Made by a program: the position numbers and the translations under genes. A model generated the notes under the pieces. That model saw nothing but the letters and a program-made list of their open reading frames with translations. It ran no database searches and had not been told where the DNA came from. Below are positions 46,107 through 52,269 of a DNA stretch of 64,000 nucleotides, piece after piece. Each line of letters begins with the position of its first letter. Position 1 is the first letter of the stretch. Source of the DNA: Caldifarciminota bacterium (GTDB taxonomy: Bacteria; Hydrothermota; Tepidihabitantia; SM23-42); assembly GCA_027026255.1 (NCBI GenBank), contig JALVOT010000018.1:62001-126000 (forward strand), given 5' to 3'.

Positions 46107-47504
46107 CTATTCACCCCGCAGCAGGGTTGCCATGGGGTCCCAGGGTGGCAGGTGGGTCGGCTTCTCCTTAAATATATCCCTGATTCTTTTGGGCAGGTAT
46201 CGCTTATTGATAATCACTGCATAGACATATTCATCAAACCAGTCATTATACATAACCCAGTGTCCATTATCGCCCTTCTTCTTACCGTGGCTGTCCTCAA
46301 CCCACCACTTTACAGGTTTATCCTTTTTTATATCAACTCCCATAAATACCATTGCATGATTACCGCCACTCTCATGAAACAGAATGCGTTCTTCTTTATT
46401 CAACACAATTGTAATTTTGTATAGGGATTGGTAATCAAAAATTCGAGGAGAAAGAATTCCATTTTTTGAATCCCTGTCTTTAATAATATCGCAGGCAAAC
46501 CAGACCGGTTCGTCATCAAGCACCGACTTCATTGTAAGTTCCTCCATTATCTTGATGTCAAGGTTTGCATAGACCGGATCCGCACATTCTACAATATTAC
46601 GAACATTATCACACTGATAAAGACGATTGAATTCCTTGCCCGGATAATTAAAAATTGCAACATAATCCTTTATATCAATCCCGACGACATCCTGATAAAA
46701 CTTTTTGGGTGTATACGACTCAGGAGGAGAAATATTACCATCTTTATCTTCATATCTCCAGATAAATCTTGACGGCGGTTCACCCAGATTCAAAATAAGA
46801 ATCCGGTATATCGTCTTCAGCATCCCGACCTTCTTCTGCCTTAATATATCAGTCCCGGCGCCATCCTTTGCAAGCTTTCTTAAAATCACCGCATCCTCAC
46901 GCAGTTTTTGTGAAATAATCCGATTCATCACCCAGGAATTATTAGAATTGTAGGTCTCCGGCATCGCAGACCTAGGAACAACACCATACTTATCAATAAG
47001 ATTTACCACATAAGACCAATAACCACCATCAAATACCGGTCGGTCGAGAAACAGAGAAAGTTCACGGTCAAGTAAATTCCGGTCCCGGGAATCAATAATG
47101 AATTCGAGAAATCGATTTGCCTTTTCCAGTTTATCCCAGAAAAAGAGATAGGTCTGAGAAAACTCAAAATTCTTTAAATTATATTTTTTAATCACCCTGG
47201 GTCTTAATACATTCAACCCGGCAAAAAGCCAGCATCTTCCACTCCGTTTCTGGTCGGTAATACCCCTGGTCTTGATTTTATGAGTAAAAAGATTATTATG
47301 ACGGGCAAGAAAACGGTGATTCAGACAGAGGTCGGTCAACTTATTATTGACAATGGCATTCATTATGGCATAATCTTCAGGTCCAGGTTTCATCCCACTC
47401 TGGATATCCTTGATAATATCCGTGGTTAAAGCACTGCCTGGGATATCCCGGGCAAAAGAAAATAGTGGAACAATGATACAGATAACAGAAAAAATTCTCT
47501 TCAC
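46107..47504 (-). CDS. Exported bleomycin-hydrolase/PepC-like C1 cysteine peptidase
   Basis: 465 residues with a signal peptide (MKRIFSVICIIVPLFSFA). The peptidase shows S-G-R-C-W-L-F-A-G-L-N with catalytic Cys91, and G-G-N-H-A-M-V-F-M-G with the catalytic His. At the third catalytic position, where bleomycin hydrolases read V-E-N-S-W-G, this protein reads V-E-D-S-H-G (Asp404 in place of Asn). Otherwise the fold and length match. PepC-type enzymes trim peptides and are usually cytoplasmic; an exported form fits other secreted proteases here. Preceded by AAAGGAGG and its own promoter. Confidence 0.85.
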   Translation of the reverse strand: MKRIFSVICIIVPLFSFARDIPGSALTTDIIKDIQSGMKPGPEDYAIMNAIVNNKLTDLCLNHRFLARHNNLFTHKIKTRGITDQKRSGRCWLFAGLNVLRPRVIKKYNLKNFEFSQTYLFFWDKLEKANRFLEFIIDSRDRNLLDRELSLFLDRPVFDGGYWSYVVNLIDKYGVVPRSAMPETYNSNNSWVMNRIISQKLREDAVILRKLAKDGAGTDILRQKKVGMLKTIYRILILNLGEPPSRFIWRYEDKDGNISPPESYTPKKFYQDVVGIDIKDYVAIFNYPGKEFNRLYQCDNVRNIVECADPVYANLDIKIMEELTMKSVLDDEPVWFACDIIKDRDSKNGILSPRIFDYQSLYKITIVLNKEERILFHESGGNHAMVFMGVDIKKDKPVKWWVEDSHGKKKGDNGHWVMYNDWFDEYVYAVIINKRYLPKRIRDIFKEKPTHLPPWDPMATLLRGE

Positions 47505-47530: not shown

Positions 47531-47558
47531 ATTATACCTGTCTTCGACTATCTGTCAA
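47531..47558 (-). promoter_or_regulatory. Promoter of the C1 peptidase gene
   Basis: On the minus strand: TTGACA (47558-47553), 16-bp spacer, TATAAT (47536-47531). Divergent from the leu promoter 33 bases away. Confidence 0.65.
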
Positions 47559-47591: not shown

Positions 47592-47619
47592 TTGACAAAA
47601 TCTCTATTCTGGATATAAT
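47592..47619 (+). promoter_or_regulatory. Consensus promoter of the leu operon
   Basis: TTGACA (47592-47597), 16-bp spacer, TATAAT (47614-47619). The leader-peptide ATG at 47630 follows ten bases after the -10 box. Confidence 0.8.
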
Positions 47620-47629
47620 CTCAACCATT

Positions 47630-47725
47630 ATGAAAGATTTTATCCGAGATTTCCTTCAGATCGATTCCCTTATTGCGTTGACAGTTATCCTTTTACTTAA
47701 CAAGGTGGGACTGATGCTTCCTTAA
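47630..47725 (+). CDS. leuL: Leucine-rich leader peptide of the leu operon
   Basis: A 31-codon open frame (ATG 47630, TAA 47723-47725) lying between a perfect promoter and a terminator ahead of leuA. Its product contains 8 leucines, 4 isoleucines and 2 valines. A run of three leucine codons, CTT-TTA-CTT (47690-47698), ends six bases before an RNA segment that can form an antiterminator. This is the layout of classical leu/ilv attenuation: a ribosome stalled for charged tRNA-Leu leaves the antiterminator free, and one that reaches the stop codon does not. There is no strong Shine-Dalgarno sequence, as expected for a leader only ~3 bases from the predicted 5' end. Confidence 0.8.
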   Translation: MKDFIRDFLQIDSLIALTVILLLNKVGLMLP

Positions 47726-47753
47726 CCCTATATCAAGGAAGCACAGGCCCGCC
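47704..47753 (+). promoter_or_regulatory. Predicted antiterminator hairpin of the leu attenuator
   Basis: Bases 47704-47713 (GGTGGGACTG) pair with 47744-47753 (CAGGCCCGCC) at nine of ten positions, one of them G-U. Inside them 47716-47723 pairs with 47735-47742 (GCTTCCTT with AAGGAAGC). The hairpin uses bases 47747-47753, the left arm of the terminator, so the two structures exclude each other. A ribosome at the leader stop codon would cover its 5' part. Confidence 0.7.
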
Positions 47754-47777
47754 AGATTCCCTGGCGGGCTTTTTTTT
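47747..47777 (+). terminator. Attenuator terminator ahead of leuA
   Basis: A perfect nine-base-pair stem GCCCGCCAG (47747-47755) with CTGGCGGGC (47761-47769), a five-base loop, then eight T (47770-47777). It lies between the leader peptide and leuA, 17 bases before the leuA start. Confidence 0.9.
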
Positions 47778-47793
47778 ATGAAAGGAGAAATAG

Positions 47794-49299
47794 ATGCATA
47801 AAGTCTCAATCTTCGATACCACCCTGAGGGATGGTGAACAGGCACCCGGCTTCAGTATGGGGGTTGACGAAAAGATAAAGATGGCAATCCAGCTTGAGAA
47901 GCTGAATGTGGATGTTATCGAGGCGGGATTTCCCATATCCTCAGAAGGTGATTTCAACGCCGTCGCAGAAATCAGTCGAAAGGTCAAGGGGCCGGAAATC
48001 GCCGGGCTGGCAAGGGCTTCAGAAAAGGATATTGCCCGGGCCTGGGAAGCATTAAAAAACAGCCCACACCCGAGAATTCATACATTCATTGCCACCTCAC
48101 CCATCCATATGAAATACAAATTGAAGATGGAGCCGGATGAGGTCTATGAGCGGGCAATAAAGGCCGTAAAATTTGCACGCAAATTCACCGACAATATCGA
48201 ATTTTCTGCTGAGGATGCAACCCGCAGTGAACCGGAATTCTTAATCAGAATACTCAACGGTGTTATCAAGGCCGGGGCGAGAATCGTCAATATTCCTGAT
48301 ACCGTAGGCTATACTACACCGGAAGAATTTTCAAAATTAATCTTATTTATTAAGAGTAGAATAAAGGATGCCGTAATCAGTGTTCACTGCCATAACGACC
48401 TGGGCCTGGCAAGCGCCAATTCACTCGCCGCCATAAAATCCGGTGCGAGACAGGTGGAATGCACCATCAATGGAATCGGAGAAAGGGCAGGAAATGCCGC
48501 GCTTGAAGAGATTGTGATGGCATTAAAGACGAGAAAGAGAAGTTTCCAGTGCACAACCGAAATCGATACCACCCAACTCTATCCCACAAGCAGACTGCTT
48601 TCATCCATCACCGGGGTTGAGGTTCAACCCAACAAGGCAATCGTCGGCAAGAATGCATTCGCCCATGAGGCGGGAATCCACCAGGATGGAATCCTGAAAA
48701 AACAATCAACCTATGAAATAATGAAGCCGGCAGATATCGGCCTTCCATCAAACAGCCTGGTCCTGGGCAAGCATTCAGGCCGCCATGCATTCAGGACAAG
48801 GATCAACGCCCTTGGCTATGAATTCACCCGGCCCCAGTTAAATACACTATTTGCAAAATTCAAAAGACTGGCGGACAAAAAGAAAGAGATATATGACGCA
48901 GATTTAGAAGAACTCATCACGGAAGAATTTTATCGGGTCAATCAGATGTATCACTTTGAATCAGCAAATTTCGCCGGGGGCAGTGATATGATTCCTGTTG
49001 CTACAGTCCAGATTAAAATAAATAAAAAATCTTATAAAGAAGTCGGCTATGGAGACGGTGCAGTTGATGCCGTTTACAATGCCATAAAAAAAATGACCAA
49101 AAAAAACTGCCGACTGGTCCATTTCCATATCAGTTCCATAACAAAGGGTTCAGATGCCCAGGGTAAGGTAACCGTGCAGATTGAAGAAGACGGTAAAGAG
49201 GCAACAGGCCAATCCACCCATACCGACATCGTCATTGCCAGTGCCAGGGCATTTGTCCAGGCATTGAATCGGCTTGATATGAAAAACAGGTTGAGATAG
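47794..49299 (+). CDS. leuA: 2-isopropylmalate synthase
   Basis: LeuA joins acetyl-CoA and 2-oxoisovalerate, the committed step to leucine. 501 residues. Seen: F-D-T-T-L-R-D-G-E-Q-A-P-G-F-S-M at the N-terminus, the metal-binding H-C-H-N-D-L-G-L-A, and T-I-N-G-I-G-E-R-A-G-N. The C-terminal ~130 residues form the LeuA regulatory domain for leucine feedback (Y-G-D-G-A-V-D-A-V). AAAGGAG precedes the ATG. It is the first structural gene of leuA-leuC-leuD-leuB, behind the attenuator. Confidence 0.96.
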   Translation: MHKVSIFDTTLRDGEQAPGFSMGVDEKIKMAIQLEKLNVDVIEAGFPISSEGDFNAVAEISRKVKGPEIAGLARASEKDIARAWEALKNSPHPRIHTFIATSPIHMKYKLKMEPDEVYERAIKAVKFARKFTDNIEFSAEDATRSEPEFLIRILNGVIKAGARIVNIPDTVGYTTPEEFSKLILFIKSRIKDAVISVHCHNDLGLASANSLAAIKSGARQVECTINGIGERAGNAALEEIVMALKTRKRSFQCTTEIDTTQLYPTSRLLSSITGVEVQPNKAIVGKNAFAHEAGIHQDGILKKQSTYEIMKPADIGLPSNSLVLGKHSGRHAFRTRINALGYEFTRPQLNTLFAKFKRLADKKKEIYDADLEELITEEFYRVNQMYHFESANFAGGSDMIPVATVQIKINKKSYKEVGYGDGAVDAVYNAIKKMTKKNCRLVHFHISSITKGSDAQGKVTVQIEEDGKEATGQSTHTDIVIASARAFVQALNRLDMKNRLR

Positions 49300-49307
49300 G
49301 AGGAGCA

Positions 49308-50567
49308 ATGGCACAGACAATCACCGAAAAGATTATTGCCCGGCATACCGGCAAAAAAACAGTCTCACCTGGTCAGCACCTCCTTGCCCGGGTCGATTTT
49401 ATGGTCGCCAACGACATCACCGCGCCACTCTTTATCAACCTTCTCAGCACGATATCAGCACCCAGACTCAAACTGAAAAACCGCATCGCCTTAGTCCCGG
49501 ACCATTTTGCCCCGAATAAAGACATAAAGTCGGCGGAAAATGTCAAACTGCTGCGTCGATTTTCCCGGCGTTTCCACATCAAATATTTCTTTGAGACCGG
49601 CAGGTGTGGTATTGAACACTGCCTGCTTCCGGAAAAAGGTCTTGTCCTGCCGGGCGAATTGATCTGCGGTGCAGATAGTCATACCTGTACCTACGGAGCC
49701 GTAGGCGCGGTCTCATTTGGTGTCGGCAGCACAGACATTGCCGGTGCCCTGCTCTCTGGTAAAATCTGGTTAAGGGTGCCGGAAACAATAAAAATAGTCT
49801 ATCAGGGCAAACCAAAAAAATGGGTCTATGGTAAAGATATAATTCTCTTCACCCTGAAAAATCTTGGACGCACTGCCCGATACCGTGCATTGGAATTTTC
49901 CGGTGAAACACTCAGCCATCTTGATATGAATCAGAGGTTCACAATCTGTAATATGGCGATTGAAGCCGGGGCAAAAAATGGAATTATTGAGCCGGACAGG
50001 ATTACCCTCGATTATCTTAAAAATCGTGCCCGGAGAAGATATAAGATATTCAAGAGTGATCCCAATGCCCTTTATAAAGATATAAAAATCTATGACATCT
50101 CAAATCTCGAACCCCAGATCGCCCTGCCCCATTCTCCATCCAATGTTAAATCCGTCAATGAAATCGGTAAAATTGAGGTCGACCAGGTATTTATCGGTTC
50201 CTGCACAAACGGCTGGTATAGCGATTTAAAGACTGCGGCTGAAATCATCAAAAATAAAAAAGTTGCCGATTCAGTGCGCCTGATTGTCGGCCCGGCAACA
50301 CCTGAAATCTATTTAAGATGTCTGAAAGACGGAATCCTGGAGACATTCCTCAATGCCGGCGCGGTAATATCACCCCCCACCTGTGGTCCCTGCCTGGGCG
50401 GACATATGGGAGTTCTTGCGTCTAAAGAACGTGCTGTCTCAACGACCAATCGGAATTTCATCGGTCGTATGGGACACCCTGATAGTGAGGTCTATCTTGC
50501 CAGTCCGGCAGTCGCTGCAGCCAGCGCAATCAAAGGCAGAATCTGCCATCCTGAGGAGGTCTTATGA
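49308..50567 (+). CDS. leuC: 3-isopropylmalate dehydratase large subunit
   Basis: A 419-residue aconitase-family subunit of the short archaeal/Thermotoga-like type. It isomerises 2-isopropylmalate to 3-isopropylmalate with LeuD. Seen: G-A-D-S-H-T-C-T-Y-G-A-V-G, the 4Fe-4S ligands in F-I-G-S-C-T-N-G and P-P-T-C-G-P-C-L-G-G-H-M-G, and N-R-N-F-I-G-R-M-G. The short type is shared with homoaconitase, but the leu context favours LeuC. Eight bases after leuA, with GGAGG upstream; it overlaps leuD by four bases. Confidence 0.93.
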   Translation: MAQTITEKIIARHTGKKTVSPGQHLLARVDFMVANDITAPLFINLLSTISAPRLKLKNRIALVPDHFAPNKDIKSAENVKLLRRFSRRFHIKYFFETGRCGIEHCLLPEKGLVLPGELICGADSHTCTYGAVGAVSFGVGSTDIAGALLSGKIWLRVPETIKIVYQGKPKKWVYGKDIILFTLKNLGRTARYRALEFSGETLSHLDMNQRFTICNMAIEAGAKNGIIEPDRITLDYLKNRARRRYKIFKSDPNALYKDIKIYDISNLEPQIALPHSPSNVKSVNEIGKIEVDQVFIGSCTNGWYSDLKTAAEIIKNKKVADSVRLIVGPATPEIYLRCLKDGILETFLNAGAVISPPTCGPCLGGHMGVLASKERAVSTTNRNFIGRMGHPDSEVYLASPAVAAASAIKGRICHPEEVL

Positions 50568-51061
50568 AACTGAAAGGAAAAATCTGGCTTTTTGGTGATG
50601 ATATTGATACCGATATCATCATTCCGGCCCGGTATCTGAACATAACCGACCCGAAAGACCTGAGCACCCATATATTCGAACCGGTGCGGCCAGGCATCTC
50701 GGAAAAGATGACACCGGGAGATATCATCCTGGCTGGTGAAAACTTTGGTTGTGGTTCATCAAGGGAACATGCCCCGTTGGCAATCAAGGCCGCTGGTATC
50801 AGTGCGGTCATCGCAAAAAGTTTTGCCCGAATCTTCTATCGCAATGCGCTCAACATCGGGATGCCGGTAATAATCTGTCCTGCGCTCTATGAAAACGCCC
50901 GAGAAGGTGATACCCTTATGATTGACATCAAACAGGGTAAGATAAGAAATTATCGAACCGGCGGAGTCTTTACATTCCCACGATTTGAAGACTTTATGCT
51001 CGACATCATCAATGCAGGTGGGTTAATCCCTTTTATCCTGAAAAAAAATTTAATAAAATAA
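50564..51061 (+). CDS. leuD: 3-isopropylmalate dehydratase small subunit
   Basis: The 165-residue swivel domain that completes the LeuCD active site. Seen: F-G-D-D-I-D-T-D-I-I-I-P-A-R-Y-L near the N-terminus and G-E-N-F-G-C-G-S-S-R-E-H-A-P, whose Ser-Arg binds substrate. It matches the short LeuD paired with short LeuC. It overlaps the leuC stop (ATGA), with GAGGAGG inside the end of leuC. Confidence 0.95.
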   Translation: MKLKGKIWLFGDDIDTDIIIPARYLNITDPKDLSTHIFEPVRPGISEKMTPGDIILAGENFGCGSSREHAPLAIKAAGISAVIAKSFARIFYRNALNIGMPVIICPALYENAREGDTLMIDIKQGKIRNYRTGGVFTFPRFEDFMLDIINAGGLIPFILKKNLIK

Positions 51062-51074
51062 AAAGGAGATGAAA

Positions 51075-51200
51075 ATGTTCTTTGATTGTTTTACATCAGA
51101 AGGCGTGCTTGTCACTGCCCCCTTAGATATCGGAATCAAAAATCCGGAAAGATTTGGGTCTGAATCAGACCAGAAGGAAGAGGACAATGACAAAAGATAG
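51075..51200 (+). CDS. Possible 41-residue protein between leuD and leuB
   Basis: An ATG at 51075 follows AAAAGGAG (51061-51068) at good spacing, and the frame runs 41 codons to the TAG at 51198-51200, overlapping the leuB start. The product begins MFFDCFTSEGVLVTAPLDIG and ends in a charged tail (S-D-Q-K-E-E-D-N-D-K-R). It may be a real small protein. Alternatively its translation only serves to carry ribosomes to the leuB start. No family is recognised. Confidence 0.4.
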   Translation: MFFDCFTSEGVLVTAPLDIGIKNPERFGSESDQKEEDNDKR

Positions 51201-52269
51201 AATAAAACTATTAATCCTGCCCGGTGACGGAATCGGTCCGGAAATAGTAGAACAGGCATTAAAGGTTATAGATATTATCAAAAAGAACGGGATAATGATT
51301 GAAACCGAGACCGAACTTATTGGCGGAGCCGCTATTGACCAATATGGTATACCGATTACCAGAGAGGTCATTCAAAAAGCGGATAATGCAGATGCCGTAA
51401 TCCTTGGTGCAGTCGGTGGCACAAAATGGGAATCTCTGCCAGCCGATTTAAGGCCGGAACAAGGACTGCTCAGTCTGCGCAAGGCTCTGAATCTCTATGC
51501 CAATATAAGGCCGGTCAAGGTGCTTGATAGCTTACTCGATTCCTCAACCCTGAAAAAAGAAATCATTAAAGGAGTCGACTTCGTTGTGGTGCGGGAACTC
51601 ACCGGTGGAATCTACTTTGGCGAGCCGAGGGGAATCGATGATAACAAGGCATTCAATACTGAAATCTATTTTAAGAATGAGATTGAGCGGATTGCCCGAA
51701 TCGGATTTCAAATCGCCCGCAAAAGAAAAAAGAAACTGGTTTCAGTAGATAAGGCGAATGTCCTTGAATCGTCTATGCTCTGGAGAAAGGTTGTTGCTAA
51801 AATCCATAAAGACTATCCTGATATCCAGTTGAGCCATCAGTATGTTGATAACTGTGCAATGCAGATAATAAAAAATCCCCGCCAGTTTGATGTCATCCTG
51901 ACCAACAATATATTCGGTGATATTCTCAGTGATGAATCTGCAATGCTTACCGGTTCAATCGGAATGCTTGCCTCGGCAAGTCTTGGACCGAAAAATAGCT
52001 TATATGAACCGGTCCATGGAAGTGCCCCGGATATCGCCGGTAAGGATATCGCCAACCCCTGTGCTGAAATCCTGTGTATCGCGATGATGTTCGATTATAC
52101 ATTCAACCGGGCTGAGATTTCAAGGACGATTAAAAATGCGGTTGAGGATGTGCTAAATCAGGGATTTCGAACCCCGGATATTGCGCAAGCAAATTCCCAT
52201 ATCATTTCAACCTCAAAGATAGGTGATAAGATCGCCCGGCGGGTCAAAGAACTATTACCTGCTGAATAA
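51187..52269 (+). CDS. leuB: 3-isopropylmalate dehydrogenase
   Basis: LeuB oxidises and decarboxylates 3-isopropylmalate with NAD+. 360 residues. Seen: L-P-G-D-G-I-G-P-E-I-V at the N-terminus, V-R-E-L-T-G-G-I-Y-F-G, the catalytic D-K-A-N-V-L and Y-V-D-N, T-N-N-I-F-G-D-I-L-S-D-E, and G-S-A-P-D-I-A-G-K. I chose ATG 51187, after GGAAGAGG, as it puts the conserved strand at the usual distance; an in-frame start at 51154 has no ribosome site. Last gene of the operon. Confidence 0.96.
   Translation: MTKDRIKLLILPGDGIGPEIVEQALKVIDIIKKNGIMIETETELIGGAAIDQYGIPITREVIQKADNADAVILGAVGGTKWESLPADLRPEQGLLSLRKALNLYANIRPVKVLDSLLDSSTLKKEIIKGVDFVVVRELTGGIYFGEPRGIDDNKAFNTEIYFKNEIERIARIGFQIARKRKKKLVSVDKANVLESSMLWRKVVAKIHKDYPDIQLSHQYVDNCAMQIIKNPRQFDVILTNNIFGDILSDESAMLTGSIGMLASASLGPKNSLYEPVHGSAPDIAGKDIANPCAEILCIAMMFDYTFNRAEISRTIKNAVEDVLNQGFRTPDIAQANSHIISTSKIGDKIARRVKELLPAE

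Follow-up and report, generated by a model that had tools for sequence, protein, structure and literature searches.

Evidence for a leader-peptide attenuator family with exchangeable control codons in an uncultivated bacterial order

Results

We found that the leu operon in the window (the 64,000-nucleotide stretch of a Caldifarciminota bacterium contig analyzed here) is very probably controlled by a ribosome-mediated transcription attenuator. Comparative sequence data from related elements provided strong evidence for ribosome-mediated attenuation, and showed more than was first described, with what reads as one switch re-coded across the order. A probable history, in our judgment, is that a single ancestral leaderless attenuator spread across the order's operons and was re-specified by codons placed before a constant core, giving rise to ribosome-mediated attenuators for Lys (lysA operon) and Asn (asparagine synthetase A operon).

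The probable leuA attenuator in the window

The element and its operon comprise the following parts, given in window coordinates.

47592–47619, + strand: sigma-70-type promoter TTGACA-16-TATAAT; a matching −35/−10 layout lies upstream of promoter-proximal relatives
47630–47725, + strand: leader peptide ORF, 31 codons, probably leaderless
47684–47698, + strand: control codons Val-Ile-Leu-Leu-Leu (GTT ATC CTT TTA CTT); the relatives' equivalents are Ile/Val/Leu, Lys or Asn-containing
47704–47723, + strand: antiterminator 5′ arm, overlapping the final leader codons
47735–47753, + strand: antiterminator 3′ arm, with 47748–47753 common to the terminator
47745–47777, + strand: intrinsic terminator, 11 pairs plus eight T
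47794–49299, + strand: leuA, 2-isopropylmalate synthase (TIGR00973 and NF002086 above cut-off)
49308–50567, + strand: leuC (TIGR02083 above cut-off)
50564–51061, + strand: leuD (TIGR02087 above cut-off)
51075–51200, + strand: small ORF, 41 aa, with a Shine-Dalgarno site; its family is linked to branched-chain attenuators
51187–52269, + strand: leuB (TIGR00169 above cut-off)

The observed arrangement of leader, promoter, antiterminator and terminator is real. The promoter, called perfect in the initial annotation, matched the consensus at 12 of 12 positions (−35 TTGACA, 47592–47597; −10 TATAAT, 47614–47619), with its spacer corrected from 17 to 16 nt. Translation of the ORF at 47630–47725 gave MKDFIRDFLQIDSLIALTVILLLNKVGLMLP, in which 8 Leu, 4 Ile and 2 Val make up 14 of 31 residues as had been counted, and the CTT-TTA-CTT run was present at 47690–47698. 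In the proposed antiterminator, the pairing of 47716–47723 with 47735–47742 stood, and that of 47704–47713 with 47744–47753 formed 9 of 10 pairs, with a mismatch between A47710 and G47747. The terminator and its eight T were borne out with 11 pairs (8 G-C, within 47745–47771) instead of nine, and the two structures do share bases, over 47748–47753 rather than 47747–47753. The window leader beat 200 of 200 shuffles in folding (z = −3.5). Its ATG lies 10 nt 3′ of the −10 box, no Shine-Dalgarno site fits the ORF, and its control codons lie 23 to 9 nt upstream of the antiterminator GGG.

Nearby, a divergent second consensus promoter (TTGACA-16-TATAAT, 47531–47558, − strand) lies upstream of a 465-aa protein encoded at 46107–47504. 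A match to the promoter region (C7) was set aside as mere promoter similarity, upstream of a ribosomal protein gene. The lineage had been described as T9SS-bearing, and PorZ-like and sorting-domain matches within the window confirmed such features.

Predicted mechanism

Features of sequence and structure that mark an attenuator were found here. A translatable short upstream ORF carried codons for the product amino acids and was kept in relatives; the intrinsic terminator ahead of the gene and the antiterminator had a common arm, with triple covariation at one column; and codon distances and stop-masked folds fitted an arrangement in which stalling on the control codons releases the antiterminator, whereas a ribosome that has reached the stop prevents it from forming. 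The two helices were computed to be mutually exclusive. Folded alone, the antiterminator segment gave −20 to −30 kcal/mol, and the terminator was kept in 15/15 folds when a ribosome footprint was masked at the stop. At equilibrium, the terminator state in the window was slightly more stable than its alternative (−35.2 versus −31.9 kcal/mol); thus, the choice between states must be kinetic.

The predicted transcript begins with the leader ATG or immediately upstream of it, and ribosomes would load directly onto its 5′ end, with no need of a Shine-Dalgarno site. Given ample branched-chain aminoacyl-tRNA, translation would proceed to the stop codon, where the ribosome would cover the antiterminator 5′ arm; the 3′ arm would stay free for the terminator, and RNA polymerase would halt before leuA. 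Under a shortage of Ile, Val or Leu, the ribosome would pause at codons 9–23 nt upstream of the antiterminator arm (47684–47698); the arm from 47704 would then be free, and the antiterminator could form before the terminator 3′ arm is made. By sequestering the terminator 5′ arm, the antiterminator would permit transcription of leuA-leuC-leuD-small ORF-leuB. A 1:2 protector hairpin would be dispensable under this scheme, with the ribosome at the stop codon itself preventing antitermination, and untranslated RNA would tend toward antitermination. The window leader fold contained no stable hairpin between the leader body and the antiterminator arm. The suggestion that proteobacterial logic fits base for base probably does not hold, as no region 1 or 1:2 hairpin was seen and the leader is probably leaderless. 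The broader proposal of translation-coupled attenuation fared better: the leader ORF, its register, both helices and the terminator recurred among relatives, and the codons followed the downstream pathway.

Elements in related genomes

The window's own genome was scanned via models and patterns. A first covariance model, built from six branched-chain elements and run across the phylum, revealed additional elements within the same order. A second model, built from 15 elements, gave 15 strong elements in the order (E ≤ 6e-12; next match 2.4e-7); because these are the model's own training set, the separation shows that there are no near matches and is not independent discovery, which rests on the first model. 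The strong elements sit in 6 of the order's 27 genomes besides the window's own, and nothing comparable was seen elsewhere in the 147 phylum genomes. Nine were of the Ile/Val/Leu type, three of the Lys type (lysA) and three of the Asn/Lys type (asparagine synthetase or its operon partner). At lysA of genomes G025, G011, G003 and G015 the element was absent.

Two loci had attenuators in tandem (L097:2281–2800 and L113:2260–2800), each with a predicted leaderless leader of 29 codons followed by an ORF of 89–92 aa whose hydrophobic end acts as the second leader. In G024, both lie upstream of leuA; the first, leaderless leader reads MQKYFIEIAICKIVLVILIALRRLGLMAV, and the second is formed by the final part (SSLVVIILILSMGLSWL) of a ~89-aa ORF with its own Shine-Dalgarno site. 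G023 retains both attenuators, but its leu genes at this locus have decayed to a fused remnant of the leuA and leuB ends; leuA was not found in this genome. Separately, a hit on G023 contig C10 (L142, about 1440–1620; 5e-5) had the leader MVRFTLNIISLILILVIVILLRRLGSMLPW, mismatched arms and no matching gene downstream, and is a probable decayed branched-chain attenuator. In G007 (L209:1–400), a branched-chain-type attenuator lies upstream of a methyltransferase gene and not of an amino acid pathway gene.

Control codons and downstream genes

Across the 15 elements, the control codons changed in step with the downstream gene. Codons −23 to −9 of the branched-chain type encoded VILLL (window), ILIAL, VIILI, ILIAI, VIILI, VIVLL, VILVL, NVIVI and CILVL. 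Upstream of lysA they encoded MKKVM, MKKVH and MKKGY, and in the three Asn-type leaders RDNKN. The Lys-rich leaders precede lysA in G023, G024 and G026; G024 has the Asn-containing leader directly in front of asparagine synthetase A, and in G023 and G026 it precedes the gene that follows in that operon. Both gene assignments exceeded curated cut-offs (lysA, 395 versus 298 bits; asparagine synthetase A, 387 versus 309), and genes read by eye as resembling aspartokinase and a diaminopimelate dehydrogenase-like protein lie 3′ of lysA. Asn-type leaders have as many Lys as Asn codons, so asparagine is their likely, though not proven, signal.

The initial annotation had described a Leu-codon attenuator before leuA. 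The attenuator stood and Leu-only sensing did not: because control codons in the family are mixed Ile/Val/Leu, and Val-Ile-Leu-Leu-Leu in the window, the signal is read as branched-chain amino acids generally. The ilvGMEDA attenuator likewise reads several amino acids at once.

The peptides themselves bear on a different account, in which a hydrophobic run and a G-L-M ending arrest the nascent chain, so that the ribosome stalls on some cue that is not uncharged tRNA. Branched-chain leader peptides do have S-x-x-x-h-V-I-L and G-L-M in common. However, the same core also accompanies leaders that are basic and rich in Lys (lysA) or polar with Asn and Lys (asnA), these leaders share no motif with the hydrophobic peptides beyond the arm, and the conserved G-L or G-F ending is accounted for by the RNA arm that it encodes. 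We consider nascent-chain arrest very unlikely, and favor pausing at codons for scarce amino acids.

Covariation and register

In the 15-element alignment, terminator positions were paired in 105/105 cells with 6 compensatory changes, and antiterminator positions in 82%; the latter showed 19 compensatory changes, a count above all 500 shuffles and every slid version. Column 48 held either G or A, and its two alternative partners mostly changed with it, as is required of a shared arm. Orthologous pairs inflate these covariation counts; the argument therefore leans equally on register and codons. The initial annotation had looked to related genomes for the leader ORF and compensatory pairing, and both recurred in related elements with covariation. 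The final leader codons encoded the antiterminator 5′ arm in 15/15 elements, and the leader stop lay +16 nt from the GGG of that arm in 13/15 (13 and 19 nt in the other two). In each of the 13 promoter-proximal elements, the −10 box is followed 5–10 nt later by the ATG (for G004, an internal ATG within a longer open frame), and no Shine-Dalgarno site fitted these 13 leaders. From this spacing and the lack of a fitting site we infer leaderless translation, and the window's leader peptide is probably encoded at the very start of a leaderless mRNA.

Taken by themselves, the conserved alternative hairpins would also suit a metabolite riboswitch or a protein-binding attenuator with a merely incidental ORF. 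Such a model would leave the conserved reading frame, stop position and codon identity unaccounted for. Moreover, the inter-arm loop varied among elements and offered no conserved unpaired aptamer core, and no Rfam riboswitch, T-box or leader family reached its cut-off. This alternative is, in our view, less probable still than arrest. Least credible is an ordinary terminator that happens to lie behind an accidental ORF: short ORFs and terminators are common, and the weaker model hits that we inspected and rejected were mostly gene-end terminators or intragenic matches, but the alternative helices, fixed stop and pathway-matched codons are conserved in several genomes, and chance is excluded mainly because the core pattern (TGGGNCT ... 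AGRCCCRCC ... GGYGGGYYTTTT) occurred at 5 places across 147 phylum genomes, whereas its reversed control occurred at none. Ribosome-mediated attenuation is thus the reading that we carry forward.

Comparison with known attenuators

Searches of Rfam at gathering and relaxed thresholds gave no family at its cut-off, and the best leader-type scores were far below. The window element did not reach the gathering score of the leucine operon leader, and T-box RF00230 matched neither the window element nor anything in the order's 27 genomes. We filed the element as a ribosome-mediated attenuator outside the proteobacterial leu leader family.

Established leader-peptide attenuators include those of the trp, his, leu, thr, ilv and phe operons (PMC1183508). 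In 2010, authors knew of none outside Proteobacteria and Actinobacteria except their own Firmicutes his case (PMC2965389); ilv-leu attenuators were later reported in Listeria and S. aureus (PMC5864092, PMC5794164). The present element resembles leu and ilvGMEDA of E. coli and Salmonella (PMC1183508) in its branched-chain leader codons before leu or ilv genes and in having one arm common to the antiterminator and an intrinsic terminator. In contrast to these, it has no visible region 1 or 1:2 hairpin, no Shine-Dalgarno site and no Rfam sequence homology, its stop codon is fixed inside the antiterminator, and its core is reused for Lys and Asn operons. Listeria Rli60 (PMC5864092) and the S. aureus ilv leader (PMC5794164) also pair a branched-chain leader peptide with leucine genes outside Proteobacteria; they differ in belonging to Firmicutes, in a second control by CodY and, in Listeria, in a leader with a ribosome binding site. 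The trpL leader of Sinorhizobium meliloti is also read from a leaderless RNA starting at AUG (PMC10117765), but its codons are Trp and its RNA core is unrelated, whereas the leaderless design here is common to several amino acid specificities. Actinobacterial LEU element and leuS attenuators (PMC1262725) similarly place RNA control with Leu codons before leucine genes, although the LEU element uses a pseudoknot without classical terminator logic. In the leuA T-boxes of Geobacter and Clostridia, amino acid supply also governs a terminator before leuA, but tRNA is read directly.

No established Lys or Asn leader-peptide attenuator was found in the literature searched, which left most subscription journals outside its coverage; a Thr/Lys-rich leader has been suggested without proof (PMC10117765). 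Lys and Asn would widen the known amino acid range of these attenuators. Our data indicate that an uncultivated lineage in which no T-boxes were detected uses leader-peptide attenuation, in the form of a modular family that combines a constant RNA switch with swappable codons. The shared core may serve as a natural record of attenuator spread and specificity change, and the design suggests that the Shine-Dalgarno site and the 1:2 hairpin are both dispensable. The whole cassette is shorter than 200 nt, making it easily testable in a laboratory host.

For comparison, we considered the terminators that precede leuA at 79 distant loci. The Geobacter and Clostridium-type examples run through Rfam were T-boxes. 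Six Syntrophaceae-type loci (L041, L044, L049, L056, L060 and L069) had their own Leu-rich leaders upstream of leuA, ending ..LLLGLxLLxLL...PSFLG.. and unlike this core; this different type of leader-peptide attenuator is apparently missing from Rfam.

Branched-chain supply and an associated small-protein family

The leuA gene was rare, occurring in 2 of 65 class genomes and 5 of 147 phylum genomes. Its carriers in the order are the window's genome and G024, which belongs to a different family. In a more distant family (f30), three genomes carry leuA with neither the leader peptide nor the element. The phylum's five LeuA proteins clustered together with weak support (85/59), a grouping compatible with vertical descent and many losses. 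The gene for a distant LeuA-family homologue in the window's genome lies immediately downstream of a methyltransferase gene, with no attenuator in sight. Acetolactate synthase (ilvB) was not found in the window's genome, with none above cut-off in G024, and dihydroxyacid dehydratase (ilvD) was found in 0/7 genomes carrying these elements; 14/14 control genomes carry both enzymes. Because ilvB and ilvD were not found, the starting material for leucine is probably imported valine or the corresponding keto acid, 2-oxoisovalerate, which fits the sensing of all three branched-chain amino acids.

The window's small ORF, within the leu operon between leuD and leuB, belongs to an unannotated family with the motif D-x-F-T-x-E-G-h-P-x-T-x-P (E = 2.1e-8). 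Members were found as follows.

Window 51075–51200: small-protein family member
L113:2466–2744: small-protein family member
L114:6848–7057, − strand: small-protein family member
L207:380–556: small-protein family member
L208:281–451: small-protein family member
L097:2476–2744: small-protein family member

Within the class, the family coincided exactly with the six genomes that carry branched-chain attenuators, and other class genomes gave only chance-level hits for the small ORF. This distribution ties the protein to the branched-chain attenuator regulon. The small ORF lies directly 3′ of the attenuator in G003, G004, G007, G023 and G024, and three of the six genomes have no leuA, which points to the small ORF as the conserved target. 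In G003 (L207:615–2783), a gene for a gingipain-type peptidase C25 lies shortly downstream of the branched-chain attenuator and small ORF; a role in scavenging during amino acid starvation is conceivable.
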